A stretch of DNA of 48,796 bases from Candidatus Bathyarchaeota archaeon (GCA_013388905.1 JACAEI010000005.1:1-48796), one strand, 5' to 3'. Positions 32,005 to 40,491 are shown, counted from the stretch's first letter. Made by a program: numbers and translations. The notes: generated by a model not told the origin, from the letters alone.

Positions 32005-33093
32005 TTAGCCTAATTTTTCTCCACAGTTGCCGCAGAACTTTGTTCCCACAGGATTCTTTGTGCCACATTTTGAACAAGTAATTTCTGCACCAGCTTCTGC
32101 TTGCCGTGTTAGAGGCGAACCGCAATTACCGCAAAATTTCGCACTGGCAGGATTCTCAGCATTGCATTTGGAGCAGACAATTTTGGCTGCTGGCATCAGA
32201 CTTGTGCCACAGTTCCCACAAAACTTCGTTCCAACAGGGTTTTTAGCGCCGCAGTTCTGGCAAATCACAACTTGTTGCGCTTGTTGAGCCTGAGTTTGCT
32301 GCATTTGCTGCGCCATCATGTAAGGCATAGTTAAACCCATTCCAGCACCTAAGCCCGCTGCCGCAGCACCACCGCCTTCTGAACCCTTCAGTTCTGTGGC
32401 TGTTTCCTTCATGTACTGCATCACCATTGCTTGAGCGCCCATTCCAGAAGCGAATCTTCTTGCTTCTTCCGGAATCTTGACGCCCTCGAAGACGCAGTCT
32501 ATGACTTTCAAGCCTACTCTTGTCGCTTCGTCTCCGATTTTCAATGTCACCTTATCTGTAGTGGCGTCTACATTTTTTACAACTGTGAAAATATCATGGT
32601 TGCCGAATTCGTTTATGATGCGTTCGTTTATGAATCCTCTAATGTAATTTTCTACATCTCTCGAGGTGCTGGCGCCTCTGTTACCGAAAAACTCCATAAC
32701 AAACAATTTTGGGTCTTCAACTTTGTAGAGCATATAACCAAAAAAGCCCAACTCAGCTTGATATTTTATGTCGCCGCTTGGTGCCGAATATGCTGTGCCT
32801 CCGAAGTTGGCACGGAATTGGCTGTTGCTAACGAATACTACTTCACAGTCAAAGATGTCCCCCATAATACCTAAAGCCTTCAATGTGCCTGTCAAAAGTG
32901 GAACATTCTTGCTTGTTATGGTGTGCCTTCCAGGTCCAAAAACGTCGTAAGCTTTGCCGTCTCTGAAGAAGACTCCCCACTGATTTTCTTTAACAATTAC
33001 TTGACTTCCAAATTTGAGTGTAAGTTTTGGAAATCTATACGCTATGTCTTCTGCTCCAGCGTAATCCCATGCGACTCTTTCAATAATTGGCAT
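32005..33093 (-). CDS. SPFH/Band 7-like protein with three C-terminal zinc ribbons (YdjI type)
   Basis: A 362-residue protein. Residues about 25-230 form an SPFH-like domain of the YdjI/COG4260 kind (SQVIVKENQWGVFFRDGKAY, FGPGRHTITS, ENYIRGFINERIINEFG). A Gly/Ala/Gln-rich stretch (about 245-280) leads to three zinc ribbons (CQNCGAKNPVGTKFCGNCG, CSKCNAENPASAKFCGNCG, CSKCGTKNPVGTKFCGNCG). SPFH proteins form large oligomeric rings on membranes. Four bases separate it from the upstream coiled-coil gene. In Bacillus the relative YdjI belongs to a membrane-stress operon; a similar role is possible here. No hydrophobic anchor is visible. Confidence 0.9.
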   Translation of the reverse strand: MPIIERVAWDYAGAEDIAYRFPKLTLKFGSQVIVKENQWGVFFRDGKAYDVFGPGRHTITSKNVPLLTGTLKALGIMGDIFDCEVVFVSNSQFRANFGGTAYSAPSGDIKYQAELGFFGYMLYKVEDPKLFVMEFFGNRGASTSRDVENYIRGFINERIINEFGNHDIFTVVKNVDATTDKVTLKIGDEATRVGLKVIDCVFEGVKIPEEARRFASGMGAQAMVMQYMKETATELKGSEGGGAAAAGLGAGMGLTMPYMMAQQMQQTQAQQAQQVVICQNCGAKNPVGTKFCGNCGTSLMPAAKIVCSKCNAENPASAKFCGNCGSPLTRQAEAGAEITCSKCGTKNPVGTKFCGNCGEKLG

Positions 33094-33097
33094 TCAA

Positions 33098-33631
33098 CTA
33101 AACCTCCATGGGTCTGAACTGTTTTTCTCGACTATCCCATTTAGACTCAAAACCAAGTATTAAGGATTTAATGTTCCTTGCTTTAGCTGCTGCATCAGAC
33201 CATTTTTCAGCTTGACTATCATTGTATAAATCTTCCACCGCATTCGCTATTGCTTGGATGTCTGCACTTAAGTCCTTATCATAATTGAAAACCCGAGCCA
33301 ACTCAGTTTCTCTTATATGCCCTTTCCGGTCCATTAAGCCTGCATATCCGTAATCGGCGCGGTTAACTTTCTCTCCGACTCTGTCAATGATTTGTATGAC
33401 TTTTTTGAAGTCGTCGTTTGCTTTTCCAGCATTCAACGCCGCTAGATATAGTTCTTCCCATCTGTGGCGCATGCTTTTGAAATCAGCATAATAGAAGTCT
33501 CGAAGCTTCTTGTCCAGTTCTCGCAAGTCTTCTTTTGTGGAATATCCGAGTGTAAATACGTTTTGGATTTTGTCAAGTATTCCTTGTTTGTCTTTCACTT
33601 TTTCTATGGTTTCTTTCTCTCTTTCCGACAT
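33098..33631 (-). CDS. Helical protein of the SPFH cluster
   Basis: A 177-residue, highly charged, almost wholly helical soluble protein (EREKETIEKVKDKQGILDKI, RELDKKLRDFYYADFKSMRH, DIQAIANAVEDLYNDSQAEK). It lies between the zinc-ribbon protein gene (12 bases upstream) and the SPFH gene (4 bases downstream), so the three are one operon and probably one complex. It is not a clear PspA or ESCRT-III homologue, although its size and helicity invite that comparison. I recognise no named family. Confidence 0.75.
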   Translation of the reverse strand: MSEREKETIEKVKDKQGILDKIQNVFTLGYSTKEDLRELDKKLRDFYYADFKSMRHRWEELYLAALNAGKANDDFKKVIQIIDRVGEKVNRADYGYAGLMDRKGHIRETELARVFNYDKDLSADIQAIANAVEDLYNDSQAEKWSDAAAKARNIKSLILGFESKWDSREKQFRPMEV

Positions 33632-33643
33632 TTTCTATACCTT

Positions 33644-34894
33644 CTAAGTGATTTTAAATAGGGGTCTTCCTCCTCCTAAAACTTTTCCTTCACAACCATC
33701 GATGACAATCACGTAGTTTTCTCCTTTTAACGTATAGTGAACAAACCAGACTGGCGCATGCACAAGCTCAGCCTCTCCAAGAACTACGCTTGTATTGCAC
33801 GTTTCAAGTGAATCTACTTTGCCACTTGCAATTAGTTTTTCTTTTGCCTCAACCTCCGCTTTAACTTTCATTTTGGCTTCTTCTTCGCCAAGTTCTGTAT
33901 TGAGAAACTCAGCTTCTGGAGGAATCCTGCCAGGGTCAAAGGGAATCTTCTTTGCAGCAGGCACATCATAATAGTTTATTTCACTTATCATTGTTCTTCT
34001 CGCTAATGTTGGCCAAACATAATTGTTTGAGAAGGAATACGCAATAGTATAGGGTTTTTTATCTTTTTGCTGTATTTCTGCATAGGCTTTGGCACCAGCA
34101 AGAACCAGTTTTCCAAACTTTGCGAACCCACTTGAGCGTTTGTCTGTGACAGCCTCTTGAGCTTGATGAATCTCTCCCATAACTCCCATGCCTGCCTTAC
34201 CCCTAAACGATGTGTTTGCGTTGGCTGAGAAAACCCAAAAAGGAACATAGCGTAATTTCACGTTTGTTATTGAGGAATCTTTTGAAACACCCATCCTAAA
34301 AATGCCCTTATCCATGTATTTTTTCGCTGCTTCCACAGCTTGCTGAGCAAAAAGACGATTCTCGAGCATGCTATGCTTCTTTATCTCTTCTCTCGTAGCC
34401 ACGGTCAAAGTGAAGCCACAGTATCTGCATGTAACAACCAAATCTTCTTGTGTCACGTTAAACGGTGCGCCGCATCTGCTACAGTTTGTAGGAGGGGGTT
34501 CCGCCGACTTTTGAACTGGCGTAGGCGATTGTGGAGCTGTAGGCGCTGGAATTGTGGGTGTCGCTGCTCCTGTTGGAACAGGCTGACCCACTGCCGTTTC
34601 TGTGTGACTTTTGAAAGCTTGTGGGTTTTTGGCAGATGCTAGAATAACGTCTTCAACAACAAACCAGCCTTCTTGATTGTTGTCGTTTATTCCAGTAACA
34701 ATGAAATCGTCTGGAACACCTTTCACGCTCAGTGATTCTCTTGCTCCAAACATTCCAGGCTTTTTATAATCTATCATGAAACTAGTTTCGCCCGTTAATA
34801 TGCGCTCAATTTTGTAGCCTTGTTTTTCCATGGCGGCCTTCAGTTTCTCTAACAAAACTTTGATGTCGACTCCGAGGTTTTGATAACGTGCCAT
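33644..34894 (-). CDS. Zinc-ribbon protein of the SPFH cluster
   Basis: A 416-residue protein, first gene of the three-gene SPFH operon. Residues 1-100 form an alpha/beta domain (VDIKVLLEKLKAAMEKQGYK). A Pro/Thr-rich linker leads to a zinc ribbon near 137-162 (CSRCGAPFNVTQEDLVVTCR followed by YCGF). The rest is a beta-rich domain (RYVPFWVFSANANTSFRGKA, ELVHAPVWFVHYTLKGENYV) that ends close to VLGGGRPLFKIT. Bacterial ydj-type operons also combine an SPFH protein with a zinc-ribbon protein, which supports a shared membrane-associated job. No transmembrane helix is clear. Confidence 0.78.
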   Translation of the reverse strand: MARYQNLGVDIKVLLEKLKAAMEKQGYKIERILTGETSFMIDYKKPGMFGARESLSVKGVPDDFIVTGINDNNQEGWFVVEDVILASAKNPQAFKSHTETAVGQPVPTGAATPTIPAPTAPQSPTPVQKSAEPPPTNCSRCGAPFNVTQEDLVVTCRYCGFTLTVATREEIKKHSMLENRLFAQQAVEAAKKYMDKGIFRMGVSKDSSITNVKLRYVPFWVFSANANTSFRGKAGMGVMGEIHQAQEAVTDKRSSGFAKFGKLVLAGAKAYAEIQQKDKKPYTIAYSFSNNYVWPTLARRTMISEINYYDVPAAKKIPFDPGRIPPEAEFLNTELGEEEAKMKVKAEVEAKEKLIASGKVDSLETCNTSVVLGEAELVHAPVWFVHYTLKGENYVIVIDGCEGKVLGGGRPLFKIT

Positions 34895-34979: not shown

Positions 34980-35666
34980 TCATTTTATTATTAGCTGGTA
35001 AATCTCTTTTGTTACGTATTCCAGATACTTCTCTTTATCTGTCAGGTTGAATATTGTTACGGAAGCATCTCTTGTTAAGCCCACCACATAGCCGTATTCT
35101 TTAGACCTTGCCACCACATACCATAGGTCGCCATGCTTGCAATAGTCTTCGAAAAGTGAAGTTGTAATCAAATCAGGACCATAGAGCGAAAGTTTATTCA
35201 CATTTGGGATGTCAACATTATCAAAAAACGTTATCTTAGTATCCTCTGGATTTTTTAAGTGAAAATCTTTCAGCGTTTCAGGAGGTATTCTAGCTTCTAC
35301 TATGCTGCCCATTTTTTCGAAAAGAATTTCGCTGAGCTTATTTGCGATAAAATTGGCTAGACGCTTCTTCTCAACAACTGTCAGAAATGTGGAGTCTTCA
35401 CGTTGCGAAAAACTGAAAACGGCTTCTACTGTACGCGGTAATGGTGCAACTTTACCTCTATGGAAAACATGCGTTACATAATCGTGCGAATAAATGCCTC
35501 TAAGCATGTTTTCTTTCGGTAGAAGTCCTACAACTTCTGTAATAAGCGTAAATTTGTAGTCGCCTTCCTCGTAGGCTTCTTCGGTGTGATAATCCTCAAG
35601 CCTTGATGCGATTTCGGCTATTGAAAGCGGTTCTGAAAGTTTAAAGACTTTACCAGCAACAACCAT
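34980..35666 (-). CDS. Conserved hypothetical protein, divergent from the SMC-like operon
   Basis: A 228-residue soluble alpha/beta protein beginning MVVAGKVFKLSEPLSIAEIA. It has conserved-looking blocks RTVEAVFSFSQREDSTFLTV, KKRLANFIANKLSEILFE and the end KEKYLEYVTKEIYQLIIK. No enzyme motif or signal peptide is seen. Its start faces the SMC-like operon across 186 bases, so the two may share a control region, but there is no sign that it is part of that complex. I do not recognise the family. Confidence 0.68.
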   Translation of the reverse strand: MVVAGKVFKLSEPLSIAEIASRLEDYHTEEAYEEGDYKFTLITEVVGLLPKENMLRGIYSHDYVTHVFHRGKVAPLPRTVEAVFSFSQREDSTFLTVVEKKRLANFIANKLSEILFEKMGSIVEARIPPETLKDFHLKNPEDTKITFFDNVDIPNVNKLSLYGPDLITTSLFEDYCKHGDLWYVVARSKEYGYVVGLTRDASVTIFNLTDKEKYLEYVTKEIYQLIIK

Positions 35667-35852: not shown

Positions 35853-37820
35853 ATGTTGATTCAAGAGGTCATCCTCGAAAACTTCATGTCCTACGAGTAT
35901 TCTAGGGTACCCTTTAAATCTGGGATAAACGTCATCTGCGGACCTAACGGGTCTGGAAAATCCTCGCTTTTATTGGCTGTTTCCGTGGCGTTAGGTCAAT
36001 CCTACACGGAACGTTCCAAAAAGCTGAGTAATCTGATACGTTGGGGGAAAGATCAGGCCCGTGTAACATTGGTTTTGGACAACGCTAAAAGAGGCAATAG
36101 AAGACCAATTCCAAAGTTTAATAAAGACCAGATTTTTCTAACCCGTGTTCTGCGTCGAGATGGTCAATACTGGTTTGAGCTTGACAACCGGGCTGCCACA
36201 AAAACAGACGTTGCACGATTATTATCTAAACTGGGCGTTGATCCAGAAAACATGCTTATTATTATGCATCAGAACATGGTTGAACAGTTCACTGTGCTTT
36301 CGCAACAAGAAAAGCTGCGCATGGTTGAGGCAGCTGTAGGACTTGAGCCTTACCGTGCAAACGTTTTAGAAGCTCAAAAAAAGCTGACACGCATACTAAG
36401 CCAAGAAGATTCAGTAAGCAAGCTTCTGGAATCAGCTGAGCAGACGCTTAATTATTGGCGAGAACAATATGGCAGATACCAAGAAAAGAAACAGTTGCAA
36501 ACCAAAAGGCGATTTTTAGAAAGAGAACTTGCGTGGGCGGAAGTTGCCCGAAGAGAAGACGTAGCTAAAGACTTAGAGGAAGAAATGAAAAAAGAGCTAG
36601 CTATTCTGAATCAGATAGAGGAAGAGACTAAAACTGCGATAGGGCAATTGCAGACCGAACAAGGTGCTCATGACAAACTGAGAAAAGAATGGAAGACACT
36701 TTTTGACGAACGCTTAAGTCTTGAACGCGAAAAATCCAAAATCGAAACAACAATCTCACTTTGCGACCAGCTTCTAAAAGAAACCGCTATACTTGAAACA
36801 GTTAATGAGAAACATGAAAACCCGTCATCCATGATAAGTCCACTAGCAAGAGAAGATTTGTCAGCGCAGTTTAAGCTTCTCAAAAGCGCAAACTTGAACG
36901 CGCTGATACAGAATAATAGCCAGCAACTGTCAAAATTAAACGCCAAAATAGATGAAAATCAGAGAAGAACGCAGAGCTTGGAAGAAGAAACCGAAAAAAT
37001 TGGCAACCACGTTCTAGAAAGCCGAGTTAAGCTGGCTTTATTGCAGTATCGTCGTGGCAATGTTAAAGAGAATTTAGAAAGACTAGAGAATCAGCTTAAA
37101 AGTGCAAAGACAATTTTGAACGAGTCTTTGACGAAAGCAGAGCAAACAGGCCCCAGAATAGCCGTTATAAAAACTGTTGGCGAAATACTGGACGAAATGC
37201 GAATCACCGATGGACATTTAACTGCTCTTGCTGATGTTTCAGAAGACATAGAACGCATGTACGAATCCTACTCAAAACTTTACTTAGAACTAAAAGAAAA
37301 AGCGCAACAAGTAACGGAAAATAGAGAAAAAACGCTGGAAGAAGTCAAAACACGAATGCAAAATTGGAGAACAGTAATCCAAAGTCTGCTGGACCGTGTG
37401 AATCTGGAGTATCAGAAGACTTTGGCTCAAGCGCAAGCGGTTGGTGAAGTAAGACTGGCTAATGGACATGATATAGAACTAGCTGGATTAGAGATTGTTG
37501 TGGGCTTCAAAGGCGGTAAACCTGTGCCTCTTGATGCTTATACGCAGAGTGGTGGAGAAAGGACAACAGCCACTATGAGCTTTCTGTTGGCTTTGCAGCA
37601 ACATGTTCGTTCACCGTTCCGCGCCGTTGATGAATATGATATTCACATGGACCCGAAGAACCGTGAAATAATTTCGAAAATGCTCATTTCAACAGTTAAA
37701 GACGCAAATGCGCAATACATTGTGATTACGCCCAGCCAGATAACGTTTGCAAAGGAAGAAACAAACATAATTACAGTGCAAAATGTTGAGGGCAAATCTG
37801 TAATCAGAGAGGTTGCCTAA
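35853..37820 (+). CDS. Short SMC-type ATPase with Smc5/6-like head
   Basis: A 655-residue SMC/Rad50-class ATPase. The N-terminal head has Walker A (CGPNGSGKSSLLLAV, about residues 29-43) and a Q-loop region (MLIIMHQNMVEQF). A coiled coil of only about 300 residues (about 195-500) follows, with a break near ENPSSMISPLAREDL but no zinc hook and no obvious hinge domain. The C-terminal head has the signature (QSGGERTTATMSFLLALQ) and Walker B (FRAVDEYDIHMDP), which resembles Smc5/Smc6 (VDE-N-GMDP type) more than canonical SMC. It is first in an operon with kleisin-like and tandem winged-helix genes, the stop overlapping the next ATG by one base. It probably loads on DNA as a dimer with these partners. 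Confidence 0.9.
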   Translation: MLIQEVILENFMSYEYSRVPFKSGINVICGPNGSGKSSLLLAVSVALGQSYTERSKKLSNLIRWGKDQARVTLVLDNAKRGNRRPIPKFNKDQIFLTRVLRRDGQYWFELDNRAATKTDVARLLSKLGVDPENMLIIMHQNMVEQFTVLSQQEKLRMVEAAVGLEPYRANVLEAQKKLTRILSQEDSVSKLLESAEQTLNYWREQYGRYQEKKQLQTKRRFLERELAWAEVARREDVAKDLEEEMKKELAILNQIEEETKTAIGQLQTEQGAHDKLRKEWKTLFDERLSLEREKSKIETTISLCDQLLKETAILETVNEKHENPSSMISPLAREDLSAQFKLLKSANLNALIQNNSQQLSKLNAKIDENQRRTQSLEEETEKIGNHVLESRVKLALLQYRRGNVKENLERLENQLKSAKTILNESLTKAEQTGPRIAVIKTVGEILDEMRITDGHLTALADVSEDIERMYESYSKLYLELKEKAQQVTENREKTLEEVKTRMQNWRTVIQSLLDRVNLEYQKTLAQAQAVGEVRLANGHDIELAGLEIVVGFKGGKPVPLDAYTQSGGERTTATMSFLLALQQHVRSPFRAVDEYDIHMDPKNREIISKMLISTVKDANAQYIVITPSQITFAKEETNIITVQNVEGKSVIREVA

Positions 37821-38650
37821 TGCAGACGAAAAGAGAACGCTCAAAGCTGGGCAGAGAAAAGCTTCAACGCATAATCGAAATGTGTAAATCAGTTGAAGAC
37901 CGCTCGCTTGACCCTTTTCTTATTGACGTTGACGGAGTCATTAGCACTGTTAAAGAGTATTTTCCAGAATGGAAAATCCCAGACGACTTGAACTTAGATG
38001 CTGAAACTATACATCGCTTAGCTTCCGTTATAAAACTCCAAAGCGAATGGGTTAAACATCGCTCGACTTCGCTCTACACAGACCCATTCTTATTAGAAGA
38101 AAAGCTTGCGCGCATAGCAAAAGAAGATATGGTGGAAATCTTTACAAAGATTTGGCATCCTATAATCGAGTTCGAGCAGATTTCGCTTCACAGTTTTGCA
38201 GAATCCCTTCGCTATTGGGAAAGCCTTTTGCCACTTAAGGAAAGATGGAAGGAATTCGCACCAGAAGAAGTTGAAACAAGTCTTGCAACAAGAGAAGAGC
38301 TTATTAAGCAACAGATTTTGCGAGACAAAGCTTTTTCCGAAGAATTGGAAAACTTTTGGCAAGAACTGAAGCAACAAGTTGAAACAAAGGGCAAAGAAGG
38401 AAAGATTCGCTACTGGGATTTTGTGGGTGCAGAAACTTACGAGGATACTGTACAAAGGGCGTTTATGACTAGCTTCCTTGTTACATACGGTTACGCAACA
38501 TTGGAAATAATTCCATTAGAGGAAGAAATTTTCGTCAAACCATATGAAAAGCAGATGGCTAAAGCTGGCAAAAAACAGCTGATTTCCATACCCATATCGG
38601 TTTCAGTTAAAGACTGGCTGAAGTGGAAGAGAGGAGAACTGAATGAGTAA
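37820..38650 (+). CDS. Kleisin-like partner of the SMC-type ATPase
   Basis: A 276-residue protein encoded between the SMC-type ATPase (1-base overlap) and the winged-helix gene (8-base overlap). It is mostly helical (LGREKLQRIIEMCKSVEDRS, HSFAESLRYWESLLPLKERW). The C-terminal part (about 205-276) reads as a winged helix of kleisin type: AFMTSFLVTYGYATLEIIPL then EEEIFVKPY, much like the C-terminal domain of ScpA that binds the SMC head. Position, length near that of ScpA, and this terminal domain support a kleisin that bridges the two ATPase heads. Sequence similarity is low, so this is a structural inference. Confidence 0.8.
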   Translation: MQTKRERSKLGREKLQRIIEMCKSVEDRSLDPFLIDVDGVISTVKEYFPEWKIPDDLNLDAETIHRLASVIKLQSEWVKHRSTSLYTDPFLLEEKLARIAKEDMVEIFTKIWHPIIEFEQISLHSFAESLRYWESLLPLKERWKEFAPEEVETSLATREELIKQQILRDKAFSEELENFWQELKQQVETKGKEGKIRYWDFVGAETYEDTVQRAFMTSFLVTYGYATLEIIPLEEEIFVKPYEKQMAKAGKKQLISIPISVSVKDWLKWKRGELNE

Positions 38651-39197
38651 GAGAAAAGCGTACTATGCCAGCAAAATTAAAAGAGCCATCCACATGCTCT
38701 TCTACCGAAGGCACAAGAAACCCGGCGTGAAAGGATGGGAACTCAGAAAAGCTTTAGGCTCAGACTATCCGAAGGTGCTCAAAATTTTAGACGATTATTT
38801 GAAGACGCTTGATTTGCAGGTGAAGACTGTTTTTGAAGAGGAAAAACCAGTTGAAAAACCAACTTTGGAAGAGTTAGATAAGGCGAGATTCTACGTGACT
38901 TTGCGTGGTGAATTGACGCCTAAAGAGACTAAAATGATTGGGTGGCGAATAGATGACTTGGCAGGCTTAGCCATAACAATCGCATACATAATTTCTAAAA
39001 AGGGCAAAGCCCAACGAAAAGAGGTTGAAGACCTTTTGCGCGAAAAGCTTCCTGGATGGAAAGTAGGACTTAACATCGACCGCTATATCCGCTATGGATA
39101 CTTGACGCAAGACGAGAATGAACAGTTGTATTTAGATTGGAGAACCCGCGCCGAAGTCGACCAGAAAGCACTAATAGATTTGCTTCTGACAAAATAA
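38643..39197 (+). CDS. Tandem winged-helix (KITE/Nse3-like) subunit of the SMC-type complex
   Basis: A 184-residue protein, last of the overlapping SMC operon. The first winged helix spans about 8-85 (KIKRAIHMLFYRRHKKPGVK, ALGSDYPKVLKILDDYLKTL). The second spans about 100-184 and ends RYIRYGYLTQDENEQLYLDW then RTRAEVDQ, a wing-and-helix pattern like the end of Nse1/Nse3-MAGE domains (a YLxY strand then WGPRAxxE). Two winged helices of this size next to a kleisin are the mark of KITE proteins (ScpB, MukE, Nse1/Nse3), which bind kleisin and DNA. The assignment is by pattern and context. Confidence 0.8.
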   Translation: MSKRKAYYASKIKRAIHMLFYRRHKKPGVKGWELRKALGSDYPKVLKILDDYLKTLDLQVKTVFEEEKPVEKPTLEELDKARFYVTLRGELTPKETKMIGWRIDDLAGLAITIAYIISKKGKAQRKEVEDLLREKLPGWKVGLNIDRYIRYGYLTQDENEQLYLDWRTRAEVDQKALIDLLLTK

Positions 39198-39301: not shown

Positions 39302-39889
39302 ATGAATGTGAAGGTGGTGAATGTAGAATTGTCTGACGAGTTTAAAGAAGAAATGAAAAAGCTCAGAGAAGAAATTTCAAAACTAAAGAAACAGCTTGAG
39401 GCTGTTACTGAAAAAGAAACTAGAAGACGTCATGGAATCTACATTGATGTTGGCAACCATGTGCATGACTACATGGAAGACATCGTGGAGAGCGTTGCCG
39501 AGGGCATACATGGCGAGCTTGACAAATCCATTTTTATTGGTCCAAGAGGAGTCAGAATCTGCAAACGAGAAAGACGCCATCCAGAAGAGTGTGAGCAAGA
39601 TATTGACTTTCCCAAAATAGCTGAAGTCATGAGCGCTCTGGGACAAGAACACAGGCTAAAGATATTAAAGGAACTTACAAGTGGAGGCAAATACATCAAC
39701 GAGCTCCAAGAGAAACTTTCTGAAATCACTGCAAGCACGCTGTCAAGTCACCTCAATGTTCTCGAAGAAGCAGGGCTTGTAGTTCAAGAAAAAGTTAGAG
39801 GACGCTACCTCATCACTATACCAGGCAGAACTGCTTACAAAATGGCAATACGCGTCACCAAATTTCTTGAAAGGGGGAGTCAAGAATGA
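39302..39889 (+). CDS. ArsR-like winged-helix regulator with coiled-coil N-terminus
   Basis: A 195-residue protein. Residues about 10-40 are a coiled coil (KEEMKKLREEISKLKKQLEA). A His-rich middle (RRRHGIYIDVGNHVHDYMED) and the block CKRERRHPEECEQD follow and could bind metal. Residues about 105-185 are an ArsR-type winged helix (EVMSALGQEHRLKILKELTS, TASTLSSHLNVLEEAGLVVQ, EKVRGRYLI). The gene overlaps the next by four bases (ATGA), so the regulator and its unknown partner are coupled. It could sense a metal or the partner protein; neither can be told from sequence. Confidence 0.85.
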   Translation: MNVKVVNVELSDEFKEEMKKLREEISKLKKQLEAVTEKETRRRHGIYIDVGNHVHDYMEDIVESVAEGIHGELDKSIFIGPRGVRICKRERRHPEECEQDIDFPKIAEVMSALGQEHRLKILKELTSGGKYINELQEKLSEITASTLSSHLNVLEEAGLVVQEKVRGRYLITIPGRTAYKMAIRVTKFLERGSQE

Positions 39890-40491
39890 TATGGCACAAA
39901 TACGAATTGGAAAGCACAGTTATGAAGGCAAGTGAGGCTTTGACGTTATGGAAAACAGAGAATGGCATAGTTAAAATCGACAAAAACACGATAGCAATTC
40001 CAATAAAATCAGGCGATGAACGAAAAGGCTACGTATTTCATGGGAATGGTAAACTGCTTCTAGACACTATTGTGGAGACTGAAAAAGGCGCAATTGGCGA
40101 ACCTGTTGAAAAAGAATTAGAGGAACCGTTTTTGGTGCTGGGAAATGCGGAAGAAATCCAACAGCGCTTTATCACGGCTAGTGAAGAAGACTTAAAAATA
40201 ATGGGCTATGAAAGCGAACAGAAATTCTTTGCTAAGACTGAAGAACTATTTGACCGTTTCCTTGGAAGGGGACTGATACATGAATATGGTTGTTGCGGAA
40301 AGACTGGCGGTTTCATTTTTGCCTTTCCGAACAGCGGTGGCAAATTAGACATCCTCATTACTAAAGGCTCTAAGCTTGTTTACAAAGCTGCGGATAAAGT
40401 CTTTGTTTCAAACAAGCGCAAAGTGGTTTTGAAAACTCCAAAAGAAGTAATAGTATCAAGTGATCAAAAATACATGATCTTCAAGCGCTAA
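39886..40491 (+). CDS. Unknown protein coupled to the ArsR-like regulator
   Basis: A 201-residue soluble protein that starts inside the stop of the regulator gene. The N-terminal half is beta-rich (VKIDKNTIAIPIKSGDERKG, GYVFHGNGKLLLDTIVETEK). The C-terminal half has a vicinal Cys pair (HEYGCCGKTGGFIFAFPNSG) and ends KTPKEVIVSSDQKYMIFKR. The Cys pair beside glycines hints at metal or redox chemistry, but I do not recognise a family. A fixed regulator-partner pair suggests a small sensory or stress module. Confidence 0.72.
   Translation: MIWHKYELESTVMKASEALTLWKTENGIVKIDKNTIAIPIKSGDERKGYVFHGNGKLLLDTIVETEKGAIGEPVEKELEEPFLVLGNAEEIQQRFITASEEDLKIMGYESEQKFFAKTEELFDRFLGRGLIHEYGCCGKTGGFIFAFPNSGGKLDILITKGSKLVYKAADKVFVSNKRKVVLKTPKEVIVSSDQKYMIFKR

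Follow-up and report, generated by a model that had tools for sequence, protein, structure and literature searches.

The stretch of DNA considered here (the window, 48,796 nucleotides) comes from a Bathyarchaeia genome; the closest named locus encodes an ATPase that is 87% identical to the one described below. Window positions 35853-39197 hold a unit of three overlapping genes encoding, in order, (i) an SMC-type ATPase, (ii) a kleisin, and (iii) a KITE protein, with neighbouring reading frames that overlap by 1 and 8 bases. A preliminary description of the locus, drawn up before the present analysis, gave coordinates, motifs, and overlaps that all prove correct when checked against the reading frames (Table 1).

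Table 1. Operon genes, their main features, and the divergent neighbour, in window coordinates
Feature	Position	Strand	Remarks
Protein X	34980..35666	-	228 aa; no known family; linked gene, divergently transcribed neighbour of the operon
SMC-type ATPase	35853..37820	+	655 aa; placed in the Smc5/6 lineage, not decisively; no hinge or zinc hook
Walker A, GPNGSGKS	35940..35963	+	ATPase residues 30-37; usually GPNG(S/A)GKS in relatives
Coiled-coil tip	36810..36884	+	ATPase residues 320-344; a short helix after a disordered turn, at the usual place of a hinge or hook
ABC signature, SGGER	37548..37562	+	ATPase residues 566-570; S566-G567-G568-E569-R570 invariant in 48 relatives
Walker B and D-loop, AVDEYDIHMD	37623..37652	+	ATPase residues 591-600; DE-type Walker B, compare Smc6 'LDEFDVYMD'
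Kleisin, Nse4-like	37820..38650	+	276 aa; matches from a wide profile
Nse4_C domain	38417..38623	+	Kleisin residues 200-268; PF08743, E=4.1e-4
KITE protein, Nse1/Nse3-MAGE-like tandem winged helix	38643..39197	+	184 aa; AlphaFold2, Foldseek, and Pfam in relatives
KITE winged helix 1	38649..38903	+	Residues 3-87; DSSP of model
KITE winged helix 2	38949..39155	+	Residues 103-171; DSSP of model

The ATPase belongs to the SMC superfamily: Walker A, the Q-loop, the signature, and Walker B all occur in an ABC head whose two halves are connected by coiled coil, and the protein matches the Pfam family SMC_N with E=4.5e-38. Residues G30, P31, N32, G33, G35, K36, and S37 of Walker A are invariant among 48 relatives of the protein, across which Gln140 and a Walker B of the DE(Y/F)D(I/V)H(M/L)DP type also recur. 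The signature reads SGGERT in the window ATPase. The Walker A, the SMC signature, and the VDEYDIHMDP stretch named in the preliminary description are all present and recur in the relatives, and its remark that the Walker B context lies nearer to Smc5/6 agrees with the DE type of this motif.

The ATPase has neither a hinge nor a zinc hook. In its AlphaFold2 model (pLDDT 86.5), the head is followed by one long helix of 156 residues (165-320); the chain then makes a disordered turn (320-329, pLDDT below 50), forms a short helix, and runs back as the return coil (345-526), in agreement with the roughly 300 residues of coiled coil expected earlier. The SMC_hinge family (PF06470) finds no match in the window ATPase at E<=1 and matches the canonical SMC of the same genome at 5e-21. 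An SMC protein in the strict sense carries a dimerising hinge where its coiled coil ends, and the window ATPase has none. A CxxC zinc hook, the mark of Rad50 and ASRP, is found in the arms of none of the 48 relatives. Apart from one truncated row, these range from 561 to 693 aa, and in the region of residues 225-400 the two distal arms and the tip together amount to only 82-104 residues in several lineages; since the SMC_hinge model is 116 positions long, the arms of many lineages leave too little room for a hinge. The tip is poorly conserved, its positions being filled in about half of the relatives, and the coiled coil beside the head is far better conserved than the distal coil. Kleisins bind the head-proximal coiled coil (the neck) of SMC proteins, and high conservation near the head with low conservation at the tip is the pattern that kleisin binding at the neck would predict here. 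The arm tips might still dimerise in a manner invisible to a monomer model.

The second protein is a kleisin that, judged by sequence profiles, appears related to Nse4, the kleisin of the Smc5/6 complex, which serves chromosome repair in eukaryotic cells, our own included. Pfam Nse4_C matches 28 of its 34 relatives (best 1.8e-6), and a 52-sequence profile compared with the PDB matches yeast Nse4 (3.2e-5) and human EID3 (2.5e-4); the same profile reaches the ScpA C-domains (0.018 and 0.023) and N-domain (0.088) more weakly. Absence of a kleisin fold had been named in advance as a reason to abandon the reading of the locus, and the matches to both Nse4 and ScpA point to its presence. The C-terminal winged helix proposed earlier also stands, but not its assignment to the ScpA type, since Nse4_C and Nse4 match better. 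A single short kleisin match of 39% in a 344-kb viral contig (L032, 5001-5132) was judged to be probably chance.

The third protein is modelled by AlphaFold2 (pLDDT 84.9) as two winged helices. As the KITE profile has no credible match among PDB sequences, and the window sequence alone no significant match, relatives were sought by fold. Foldseek against the whole PDB places MAGE-G1/NSE1 (1.6e-5, 1.1e-4) and yeast Nse1-Nse3-Nse4 (1.9e-4, 4.8e-4) at ranks 1-4, with a TM of 0.59 to the query for the yeast chains; lower in the list, at 4.4e-3, come ScpB and MukE among cullins. The Pfam families MAGE and SMC_Nse1 match 7 and 4 of the 48 KITE relatives, respectively, though weakly. Model and family matches together suggest a relative of Nse1/Nse3, the KITE subunits of the Smc5/6 complex, as the two winged helices and Nse1/Nse3-like pattern of the preliminary description had implied.

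A profile built from the 48 ATPase relatives scores highest against Smc6 (239 bits) and yeast Smc5 (232), followed by human Smc5 (196), Pyrococcus Smc (181), and Smc2 (155), so that the lead of Smc5/6 over Pyrococcus Smc (239 or 232 versus 181) is moderate. A profile restricted to Bathyarchaeia again puts Smc5/6 first, and the single window sequence as query finds yeast Smc5 first by a narrow margin. Rad50 scores far below SMC5/6 in these comparisons, and the outcome that was to count against the earlier reading, a placement with Rad50/RecN, did not arise.

Trees of the heads alone point the same way. They comprise 34 operon ATPases, 18 canonical SMCs, 2 Rad50, and three eukaryotic Smc5/6 chains (from PDB alignments), and they unite the operon ATPases and Smc5/6 in one clade with support of 100/99. 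When six rows, mostly long branches, are left out (both Rad50, the B. subtilis Smc, and three divergent canonical SMCs), this clade is split from canonical SMC at 100/100. Within it, no branching order has firm support. Eukaryotic Smc5/6 is represented by only three rows, all of them long branches, and a grouping of Smc5/6 with canonical SMC is kept by the AU test (p=0.098); the placement of the ATPase in the Smc5/6 lineage, which the head trees favour, is therefore not decisive.

Smc5/6 components thus rank first for each subunit independently, the ATPase and kleisin by profile and the KITE protein by fold. The operon is likely to encode a minimal chromosomal SMC-kleisin-KITE complex of the Smc5/6 lineage, whose nearest relatives by profile and fold are the proteins of the eukaryotic core (Smc5, Smc6, Nse4, Nse1, and Nse3), with which it shares the Walker B type, an Nse4-type kleisin, and an Nse1/Nse3-type KITE. 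The differences are considerable: the eukaryotic complex is built of heterodimers, whereas the window genome has one ATPase of this family in place of two different SMC subunits, and the operon carries one KITE gene, so that homodimers are expected; the hinge is missing, the arms are much shorter, and the 184-aa KITE has no RING. The preliminary description had proposed a minimal machine possibly related to the ancestor of Smc5/6. The relationship is supported for all three subunits, but "ancestor" is better replaced by a relative that is probably a sister family. Eukaryotic Smc5/6 retains its hinge, and the hinge-less archaeal form is for this reason probably a reduced sister.

The three genes travel together. 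Among Bathyarchaeia, kleisin and KITE lie near the ATPase in 79 of 80 loci, nearly always contiguously, which is far beyond chance, and all three are present in 28 of 30 distant loci across the phylum; the conserved linkage on which the earlier reading depended is accordingly found in related genomes. Of 398 Thermoproteota genomes searched with the kleisin profile, 157 have a match; they fall in 78 of 163 genera. In 61 related genomes, strong ATPase matches and KITE agree in 59 (both in 49, neither in 10). The two exceptions are G032, with KITE only, and G043, with a truncated ATPase only (C58, 6668-7702, a 438-aa frame), where neither kleisin nor KITE was detected; decay after partner loss or a contig effect may explain the latter. 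Three genomes of a single genus (G048, G054, and G057) are nearly complete and yet have no copy of the operon, so the set is dispensable in some lineages.

Several loci depart from the usual layout. At L158, the ATPase gene lies some 2 kb away and is read from the opposite strand; at L102, kleisin and KITE lie 2.5 kb downstream of the ATPase; and at L165, about 1.9 kb separate KITE from the kleisin, and the ATPase is found in another part of the contig. The ATPase frame of L057 (bin490 chromosome, G009) is interrupted by two stops, through either decay or assembly error.

The locus is unlikely to encode a shortened form of an ordinary, condensin-type Smc-ScpAB complex that has no particular tie to Smc5/6. 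Such an origin would account for the shared plan, in which SMC, kleisin, and KITE are encoded together, and for a structural search in which Pyrococcus Smc is the first match of the ATPase model, and it can draw on the weak kleisin match to ScpA (0.018 to 0.023), the KITE fold match to ScpB, and the AU result, under which Smc5/6 may fall outside the clade. Smc-ScpAB differs, however, in its SMC of about 1180 aa with a hinge and in its ScpA and ScpB families, the Pfam models of which match neither of the window partner proteins; Smc5/6 components come first for all three subunits; and canonical archaeal and bacterial SMC heads are split from the operon heads with 99-100% support. A true Smc-ScpA-ScpB operon is, moreover, encoded elsewhere in the same genome (L193, G000:C24, 3758-8585), with a canonical SMC of 1183 aa and ScpA and ScpB genes that overlap if the first start is used. 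Less probable again is a defence system against plasmids or phages of the Wadjet or Lamassu kind. Wadjet JetABCD, like MukBEF, follows the same kleisin-KITE-SMC plan, and the ATPase matches the LmuB and mad3 models, as would any SMC head; Wadjet and MukBEF, however, have long arms with a hinge, and Wadjet adds the nuclease JetD. Kleisin and KITE match none of JetA, JetB, or JetD, no nuclease recurs among the operon neighbours in the loci compared, and a conserved locus in most related genomes looks like core genes rather than a mobile island of defence genes. It is very improbable that the ATPase is a repair enzyme of the Rad50, RecN, or ASRP/coalescin type whose neighbours are unrelated: the protein is short, as are the archaeal SMC-related ASRP/coalescin/Sph proteins (the NCBIfam ASRP model has 593 positions), and it gives a weak full-length ASRP match (65.6 bits against a cut-off of 300), but its Rad50 score is far below that for SMC5/6, it has no zinc hook, which most ASRPs carry (PMC9389158), and its kleisin and KITE partners are conserved, whereas Rad50 is without such partners (PMC10586767) and ASRPs have no consistent neighbours reported (PMC9389158).

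The window genome also encodes Mre11-Rad50 (L194, G000:C21, 818-4143), where Mre11 adjoins a short Rad50-like protein; this carries a CPLC hook and, at 697 aa, falls clearly below the Rad50 of relatives, which has roughly 900 aa (L205).

Other genomes with the operon may have no canonical SMC. PF06470 misses some long SMCs (families f25, f29, f40, and f41 have frames of 1128-1174 aa), so 31 of the operon-positive genomes without a hinge match were searched again, this time with a canonical SMC as query. Of these, 13 have a frame longer than 1100 aa, and no canonical SMC was found in the other 18, which represent ten families. In those 18 genomes the operon complex would be the only SMC-kleisin candidate, subject to the completeness of the draft genomes. 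Crenarchaea have been reported to be without condensin, a statement that concerns canonical SMC (PMC10769869); as the operon occurs without canonical SMC in ten Thermoproteota families, reported absences of SMC complexes deserve a recheck.

A working model for the Smc5/6-lineage complex can be patterned on the established Smc5/6 clamp (PMC9191643). Two ATPases would engage head to head upon ATP binding, bridged by the kleisin with its N-terminal domain at one ATPase's neck and its C-terminal winged helix at the other's cap, and a KITE homodimer on the middle of the kleisin would press DNA onto the heads. The short arms (about 23 nm here and far shorter elsewhere) would form no closed large ring. 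Because without a hinge the arm ring could not be closed in the usual way, the kleisin/KITE clamp over the heads may be the main or only DNA-holding compartment. In genome maintenance the complex would probably use ATP to clamp DNA or to translocate over short distances; it would work alongside Smc-ScpAB in the window organism and stand in for it in lineages that have none.

The hinge is central to ring closure, DNA entry, and loop extrusion in current SMC models, and a conserved, apparently functional hinge-less complex offers a direct test of the head-kleisin-KITE clamp alone. We tentatively propose, with rather less assurance than the Smc5/6 relationship itself, that the operon represents a phylum-wide family of hinge-less archaeal Smc5/6-type machines, the sole SMC-kleisin complex in some lineages, that work as ring-less ATP-driven clamps and could be the closest archaeal relatives of the eukaryotic Smc5/6-Nse1-Nse3-Nse4 core; if true, the head-kleisin-KITE clamp would be shown to be the functional core of SMC machines.

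Archaeal ATPases that group with Smc5/6 have already been published (PMC9389158; PMC10003631). The window ATPase is very probably a member of this archaeal "SMC5/6-related" SMC set (Yoshinaga and Inagaki 2021, cited in PMC9389158). Within the literature surveyed, which comprised no preprints and few subscription papers, no description was found of kleisin or KITE partners, the missing hinge, the distribution, or the sole-complex status. The operon adds archaeal counterparts of Nse4 and Nse1/Nse3 to that of the ATPase, which bears on the origin of Smc5/6.

The neighbourhood of the operon offers further leads. Protein X lies beside the operon in 14 of the 39 loci compared, in several families, usually just upstream and divergent; it has no match in Pfam, NCBIfam, PADLOC, or the PDB and is possibly a regulator or a fourth component. 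No Nse2, Nse5, or Nse6 was recognised among the immediate neighbours. In many distant lineages, a large Lhr-type helicase gene lies convergently just downstream of KITE (L157, L160, L162, L166, L168-L171, L173, L175, L181, and L182), an association that suggests a link to DNA repair. In the window, the minus strand at 32005-34894 encodes an SPFH/Band 7 protein with zinc ribbons and then two proteins, of 177 and 416 aa, that belong to no known family. Downstream of the operon, at 39302-40491 on the plus strand, an ArsR-like winged-helix regulator with an N-terminal coiled coil is encoded by a gene that overlaps that of a 201-aa protein of no known family.
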